This document shows positions 51,771 to 54,591 of a stretch of DNA of 64,000 nucleotides, one piece after another; the stretch's first letter is position 1; every line of letters starts with the position of its first letter. The notes below the pieces were generated by a model. That model did not search any database, was not told the origin of the DNA, and saw only the letters and a list, made by a program, of their open reading frames with translations. The DNA is from Gilliamella sp. ESL0443 (GTDB taxonomy: Bacteria; Pseudomonadota; Gammaproteobacteria; Enterobacterales; Orbaceae): the NCBI RefSeq assembly GCF_019469165.1, contig NZ_CP048263.1, positions 1,984,001 through 2,048,000 on the forward strand, read 5' to 3'. Position numbers and translations under genes: made by a program.

Positions 51771-52130
51771 ATGAAATTATTAAAAAAAATAAAACATGTT
51801 TATTTATTTCTAATACTTGCTATCTTTATAACTGCATGTGGCGGACTTGATGCAATTCCTTCAGAAAAAAGTAACTATATTGGCAAATGGCAAGGTGAAT
51901 ATATGGTGATAACTATCACTAAAGACGCCAAAGTTATTTACAATTATAAAAAAGATGGGGTAACTAAAAGCGTTGAAGGGCCGATACAAGAATTTATTGG
52001 TGATGATTTTAAAGTAGGGGTTTTAGGTTTAAATTCTTTATTCAAAGTAAGTAAGCCTCCTTATTTTGAGGAGGATCAATGGAAAATGGTCATTGATGAT
52101 CAATTAGTTATCAAAACATCGTATTTTTAA
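51771..52130 (+). CDS. small lipoprotein of unknown function
   Basis: Protein of 119 residues with a lipoprotein signal (IFITACGG; Cys23) after AAGGAATAAAAAAATG. The mature part looks like a small beta-barrel or lipocalin-like domain (IGKWQGEYMVITITKD, then DQWKMVIDDQLVI). No family recognised. It is just upstream (in map terms) of the convergent RyhB-like RNA gene, whose terminator lies 12 nt past its stop. Confidence 0.6.
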   Translation: MKLLKKIKHVYLFLILAIFITACGGLDAIPSEKSNYIGKWQGEYMVITITKDAKVIYNYKKDGVTKSVEGPIQEFIGDDFKVGVLGLNSLFKVSKPPYFEEDQWKMVIDDQLVIKTSYF

Positions 52131-52142
52131 TCACTTTAAAAT

Positions 52143-52240
52143 AAAAAAGCCAGCATAGTTGCGCTAGGCTGGCAAACATTGGAAGCAATGTGAGCAATGT
52201 CATACTTTTTCAGAAGTCTTGCGACGCTCTAATCAAGTAC
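52143..52240 (-). ncRNA. ryhB: RyhB-type iron-regulated small RNA
   Basis: RNA of about 98 nt, read on the minus strand. Its core GACATTGCTCACATTGCTTC (within 52180-52202), followed by CA, is the E. coli RyhB core as I know it. It is followed by a rho-independent terminator (52143-52173: GCCAGC and GCTGGC arms with an inner TAG/CTA, then six U) and preceded by a 5' hairpin with a GCAA tetraloop (52216-52225). A promoter and a Fur box sit just upstream. RyhB is an Hfq-dependent RNA made when iron is scarce, which pairs near ribosome sites of mRNAs for iron-using proteins. It fills the 333-bp gap between the lipoprotein gene and obgE. Its targets in this genome are unknown. Confidence 0.9.
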
Positions 52241-52246
52241 ATTTTA

Positions 52247-52275
52247 ATGATAATAATTCTCATTATTAAAAGCAA
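52247..52275 (-). promoter_or_regulatory. promoter of the RyhB-type RNA
   Basis: On the minus strand TTGCTT (52275-52270) and TATCAT (52252-52247) are separated by exactly 17 bp. Initiation would fall near G at 52240. Confidence 0.65.
52248..52262 (-). promoter_or_regulatory. Fur box over the ryhB promoter
   Basis: TGATAATAATTCTCA reads as the 7-1-7 Fur motif (TGATAATnATTATCA) with one mismatch. It lies between the -35 and -10 of the small-RNA promoter, where Fe-Fur would block transcription. Confidence 0.8.

Positions 52276-52463: not shown

Positions 52464-54591
<2,128 letters not shown>

Follow-up and report, generated by a model that had tools for sequence, protein, structure and literature searches.

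Between a small lipoprotein-like ORF and obgE, the 64-kb stretch of Gilliamella sp. ESL0443 DNA analysed here (64,000 nucleotides, hereafter the window) contains a gap for which an earlier note, made from the letters alone, proposed a small RNA of the RyhB type on the minus strand. The question raised by this locus is twofold: whether the gap encodes a genuine RyhB, and which mRNAs such an RNA would act on in a bacterium of the family Orbaceae. The placement of the candidate between the two neighbouring genes was borne out (Table 1). An Rfam covariance search of the window, the check that the note had named, returned RyhB (RF00057) as the sole family above its cut-off, with a match at 52209-52141 on the minus strand that spans model positions 1-67, end to end, and passes the gathering score of 55 by 1.8 bits (56.8 bits, E 6.8e-08); this is the single match in the 2.40-Mb genome. 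The core GACATTGCTCACATTGCTTC occurs exactly at 52182-52201 (-), has no other match in 64 kb even when 3 mismatches are allowed (0 in 100 shuffles), and is identical to that of E. coli K-12 ryhB (NC_000913), so that the 20-nt identity given in the note proved correct letter for letter; the core GACATTGCTCACATTGCTTCC that marks a RyhB is likewise present.

RF00057 was matched in 33 of the 35 genomes of the genus and, at E <= 0.001, in 42 of the 44 Orbaceae genomes (34 of the 44 above the gathering cut-off). All 39 high-quality genomes of the family (completeness of 90% or more, contamination of 5% or less) and all five genera carry it, and the two genomes with no match are 67% and 81% complete. 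The note had suspected a distant member of the RyhB family in Orbaceae, and RyhB can now be placed in every Orbaceae genus examined. A 30-mer from the Orbaceae ryhB alignment was found in 27 records of a named genome collection, all of them Orbaceae, the carriers being Gilliamella, Orbaceae bacterium ESL0727 and ESL0721, Frischella japonica, Orbus hercynius and Candidatus Schmidhempelia bombi. An apparent second ryhB copy in genome G043, at C1:1224597 (31.4 bits), was rejected as false because it lies within a 258-aa open frame, which we take to resemble a DeoR-type regulator. Our literature search found no paper on RyhB together with Orbaceae or with Gilliamella, and none combining Gilliamella, small RNA, Fur and iron. 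Judged by its sequence, the ryhB locus is a genuine orthologue of E. coli RyhB and is ordinary by ancestry.

The gene keeps its neighbour across the family: obgE was matched in 41 of the 42 ryhB loci, taken as stretches of about 3 kb. One Schmidhempelia-type locus contains only the end of obgE, and in the one locus that gave no obgE match, the longer version from a named record has obgE about 1.8 kb from ryhB. The lipoprotein-like ORF adjoins ryhB in 6 of the 42 loci, the window included. No tRNA was found in the window, and a distant-mode plasmid search gave 18 records, all short pieces, none covering 80% of the query.

Table 1. Features of the ryhB locus, with positions counted from the first letter of the window
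Feature	Position	Strand	Basis
Small lipoprotein-like ORF	51771-52130	+	no NCBIfam match
ryhB, predicted ~98-nt transcript	52143..52240	-	RF00057; 5' end inferred from -10 box, 3' end from T run
Terminator T run (six T)	52143..52148	-	sequence
Intrinsic terminator stem	52149..52173	-	sequence, covariation
Second seed copy, can form hairpin ACAUUG-CUUC-CAAUGU	52176..52191	-	alignment and consensus fold
First seed copy GACATTGCTC, predicted leuC/katA pairing region	52192..52201	-	exact; invariant in 42 copies
5' hairpin with GCAA loop (GNRA)	52210..52232	-	fold of single sequence
-10 box TATCAT	52247..52252	-	sequence
Fur-box-like palindrome AATAATGAGAATTATTATC, overlaps -10 box	52249..52267	-	match to 19-bp consensus
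-35 box TTGCTT	52270..52275	-	sequence
obgE, conserved neighbour (context)	52464..53627	-	TIGR02729 / NF008955

The promoter described in the note is present, its two boxes being separated by 17 nt, and the arrangement of TTG, a 17-nt spacer and TATCAT is found in 42 of 42 ryhB loci. Compared with the sigma-70 consensus, the -35 box agrees at 3 of 6 and the -10 box at 5 of 6 positions, and a stricter promoter scan gave 7 sites versus 5.1 expected, with the TTGCTT/TATCAT pair not among them. In addition, the promoter contains a Fur-box-like palindrome, absent from the note, which matches 16 of the 19 positions of the consensus. Matches of 14-15 of 19 on one strand are also reached by ten random 64-kb sequences, and the lone box of the window would prove little without the comparison of the 42 loci. 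Every one of these has a Fur-like box matching the consensus at 14-18 of 19 positions; its best match falls in either of two registers that are offset by 6 nt, one used in 34 loci and the other in 8. We read this palindrome as a putative Fur box of the ryhB promoter.

The architecture of the RNA was examined in alignments of 41 and 42 Orbaceae ryhB copies. The fold of the single sequence has a z of -2.26, with 2 of 200 shuffles as stable. The 5' hairpin with a GNRA loop that the note had claimed is formed, with a GCAA loop, in the fold of the single sequence, but it is not in the consensus structure of the 42 relatives, and the 5' third of ryhB varies freely across the aligned copies. On the other hand, the columns ATGACATTGCTC-ACATTGCTTCCAAT are invariant in the 42 copies, barring insertions in two of them. 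The first seed copy is complementary to the starts of leuC and katA (see below). The second copy is followed in Orbaceae by the arm CAAUGU, with which it can form the hairpin listed in Table 1; five of its six pairs are invariant in the 42 copies and the sixth is disrupted in a single copy, so that the first copy, GACAUUGCUC, would be left as the open seed. The terminator with six U described in the note is present, all 42 loci have six or more T after the stem, and four of the stem pairs show compensatory changes, both partners being altered in one or more copies. The base of the stem has changed from G-C to A-U in 5 of the 42 copies, and pairs further in are lost to mismatches or gaps in 1 to 6 copies. 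The most divergent member of the family is that of the fifth genus, G043 (L038, G043:C1:199370-199437, and L073), which has an extra base between its two seed copies. Furthermore, in L041 (G006:C72), from one species, 9 nt of the seed are duplicated in tandem, so that ACATTGCT is present three times; if this is not an assembly error, it is a natural seed variant.

The proteins expected to work with a RyhB are encoded as well: this genome has two Fur-family proteins (150.9 and 57.4 bits), and Hfq was found in 43 of the 44 Orbaceae genomes. The textbook targets sdh and sodB, in contrast, appear to be missing, because the SdhC/D family is above its cut-off in 0 of the 44 genomes (with one sub-threshold match), and the sole Fe/Mn superoxide dismutase, of which there is one per genome in 40 of the 44, is in this genome closest to Mn-type enzymes such as that of E. 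coli. A survey of 95 Gilliamella genomes, as far as its available part goes, likewise called the TCA cycle severely lacking (PMC11325843). The pairing to sdh and sod leaders expected in the note mostly fails for these reasons. The sodA leaders contain short matches that overlap the SD, namely GAGCAAT in 12 and GAGCAA in 8 of 30, with other sequence in 9 of 30; only in genome G043 is there a longer one, GAGTAATGTCAT at the sodA start, with 12 pairs including one G-U. We therefore rejected sodA as a family-wide target, its short sites ranking 52 (duplex) and 120 (cofolding) among the 169 starts compared below.

To find other candidates, short seed-complement patterns were scanned genome-wide, SD sequences being called by a pattern of our own. 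The word GCAATGTC has 48 sites in the genome, one of them within ryhB itself, and among the 47 others the only SD-backed starts are those of leuC and of a 486-aa catalase gene (katA). AGCAATGT has 90 sites in the genome, and TGAGCAAT has 223, with no convincing start site among the 71 examined. A TolA-like ORF (a provisional name, like those of the cupin-like and glycosyltransferase-like ORFs mentioned below) has AGCAATGTC in its start region, with no SD by the pattern used.

The start of leuC is covered by GCAATGTC in 42 of the 43 leuC-bearing genomes, and the E. coli sodB word GCAAUGUC, with the start codon inside, covers leuC in 42 of 43 as well; the leuC of G043 keeps only CAATGTC (CAAUGUC). 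In K-12 the word is not found at leuC, whereas sodB has AGCAATGTCA. Across 42 leuC leaders, positions -3 to -1 are conserved at 98, 100 and 100%, while positions -12 to -4 reach only 50-76%. No comparable peak at -3 to -1 was seen for obgE (37 loci), sodA (29), leuB (30) or a prfB-like gene (19); leuD does keep a GTC in 28 of 30 leaders, but its leader is conserved in general, and smrB leaders were caught in 4 loci, too few for a comparison. The gene lies 64 nt after leuB, with frames on either side that we presume to be leuA-like and leuD-like. Besides a full leuC at another site, three genomes carry additional leuC-like fragments (G023:C33:8126-8683, G017:C19:134928-135095 and G020:C23:92216-92377), some of which contain stop codons. 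We found no report of leuC as a RyhB target in the passages of PMC10965054, PMC5428311, PMC5471319 and PMC5286369 at hand, and the parts of PMC11257911, PMC7377471 and PMC4666370 available to us contain no passages on leuC.

The start of katA carries the exact GCAATGTC in 24 of 28 KatA-type loci, where it is likewise covered by the sodB word GCAAUGUC, and that of G002 has GTAATGTC, in which a G-U pair is retained; the KatA-type loci of G040, G042 and G043 are without the word, as are the two KatE-type catalases (G035 and G036). A catalase was matched in 32 genomes, from which the match of G041, the fragments of G028 and the second match of G042 were left out of this reading. In G028 (C1:62576-65973) the catalase was seen only in two pieces lying apart, of which one contains an in-frame stop; the gene is apparently broken. 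The katA leader is more generally conserved, and therefore its peak is less telling than that of leuC. A weaker site is found at aconitase (TIGR01340), where AAGCAAUG-g-GAGC over the SD would form twelve pairs and a single mismatch; of this element, the first part reads GCAAT in 15, GCAGT in 4 and GTAAT in 1 of 21 leaders and is absent from 1, and the second part is the SD itself. In addition, the start of ilvD, encoding an Fe-S dehydratase (L263 697-2547, -), reads GGGAGCAACAAATG and is partly complementary to the RyhB seed; ilvD, which belongs to branched-chain amino-acid synthesis, may be another target.

Pairing energies were ranked over 169 SD-supported starts, a sample enriched for seed words. 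By duplex energy katA ranked 4, ilvD 5, aconitase 7 and leuC 10, and by cofolding katA ranked 5, leuC 7, aconitase 20 and ilvD 22. The best cofolding score belongs to a cupin-like ORF (L076 990-1310, +) with no NCBIfam match above cut-off, which has GAGTAATGTCATG at its start with 12 seed pairs including one G-U, and this ORF and others, e.g. a glycosyltransferase-like one, outscore the predicted targets in cofolding. Energy alone would therefore not have found the targets, and the argument for them is carried by conservation, not by pairing energy.

The same observations leave some room for a true RyhB of which leuC and katA are not targets; GCAAUGUC would then reflect common ancestry or a context that favours translation initiation, and RyhB would act on other mRNAs, e.g. 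those of isc, fum, frd or ferritin. It fits this account that the duplex energies of the leuC and katA sites are not extreme, and that the scan covered short patterns only, with the fum, isc, frd and ferritin leaders outside it. However, GCA precedes the start codon in just 3 of the 169 sampled starts, two of which are leuC and katA; initiation context or ancestry would also have to explain why positions -3 to -1 of leuC are fixed while its remaining leader drifts, why both genes encode iron enzymes (the leuC product is, as is generally known, a [4Fe-4S] enzyme and KatA a haem catalase), and why the word is identical to that at K-12 sodB, where RyhB is known to act on the start codon. We thus consider this account unlikely. 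That ryhB is a decayed or silent relic, kept by descent and non-functional, seems very improbable: the TCA-cycle targets are indeed missing in the lineage (by the SdhC search and by the accessible part of PMC11325843), but the seed columns are invariant in copies from five genera, and the promoter with its Fur-like box and the terminator are kept, the latter with compensatory changes. A chance covariance match, or a different RNA such as an antisense or 3'UTR transcript of obgE or the lipoprotein gene, is hardly credible, since the narrow excess over the gathering score is outweighed by the E-value in 64 kb, the single genome match, its presence throughout the family, a promoter of its own, and the lipoprotein gene standing beside so few copies.

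The explanation that we favour, and regard as quite likely, is that the locus encodes an orthologous, Fur-silenced, iron-sparing RyhB that pairs at the starts of leuC and katA and, more weakly, at the aconitase leader. In an iron-replete cell, Fur-Fe(II) bound at the promoter would silence ryhB; upon iron shortage the ~98-nt RNA would be made, and its exposed seed, probably with the help of Hfq, would pair with the words over the start codons of leuC and katA, the aconitase leader being paired less strongly. The pairing would repress these genes by blocking ribosome loading and would probably trigger mRNA decay, and scarce iron would thereby be spared from dispensable [4Fe-4S] and haem enzymes. 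As leuC follows leuB, with the leuA-like and leuD-like frames flanking it, repression could uncouple the iron enzyme LeuCD from leuAB. By this scheme ryhB probably now switches off other iron enzymes, such as those of leucine synthesis and hydrogen-peroxide breakdown. On balance we lean, with somewhat less confidence, towards a broader interpretation, in which the Orbaceae RyhB has outlived its textbook regulon: with SdhC/D and the Fe-type SodB gone, the seed and the sodB-type word would have been kept or re-created on leuC, katA and aconitase, a family-wide hairpin would hide the second seed copy, and the RNA, its regulon rewired, would now spare iron by regulating leucine synthesis and peroxide defence in these bee-gut symbionts. 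The locus would then offer a natural case of a small RNA whose textbook targets are missing while its seed and target word stayed, and the throttling of leucine synthesis and catalase in iron-short bee-gut symbionts becomes directly testable at the exact sites given here.

Compared with RyhB of E. coli K-12, the Orbaceae RNA has the identical 20-nt core, a similar length and layout, a U-tailed terminator and a Fur-box-like palindrome just upstream. It differs in its neighbours, which are yhhX and yhhY in K-12 and obgE in Gilliamella; in the conserved hairpin over the second seed copy, whose 3' arm is not in K-12 RyhB; and in its predicted targets, which are leuC, katA and aconitase in a family where neither SdhC/D nor an Fe-type superoxide dismutase was found. 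E. coli RyhB represses katG, for which sequence inside the ORF is required, according to the part of PMC4666370 available to us. RyhB of Shewanella oneidensis, for which AcnA and SdhA have been reported, in the available part of PMC2964681, to be outside its control, is likewise a gammaproteobacterial RyhB without a link to the TCA cycle; there, however, the TCA genes exist and are uncontrolled, whereas in Orbaceae the SdhC/D family itself was not found. HrrF of Haemophilus influenzae is another Fur-regulated small RNA from a gammaproteobacterial family; as described in the accessible part of PMC4144887, it occurs only in Pasteurellaceae, its stability is Hfq-independent, and it has different targets (modABC, asnA, asnC and nrdB). 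Similar kinds of targets are found for Fur-controlled RNAs of Firmicutes, namely FsrA of B. subtilis, which has leuCD and citB (aconitase) listed among its targets in the passages seen of PMC8464778, and IsrR of S. aureus, which acts on katA and TCA enzymes according to those of PMC11257911. Without claiming sequence homology, we regard these two as analogous Fur-controlled iron-sparing RNAs directed at the same kinds of targets as those predicted here for the RyhB of Orbaceae.
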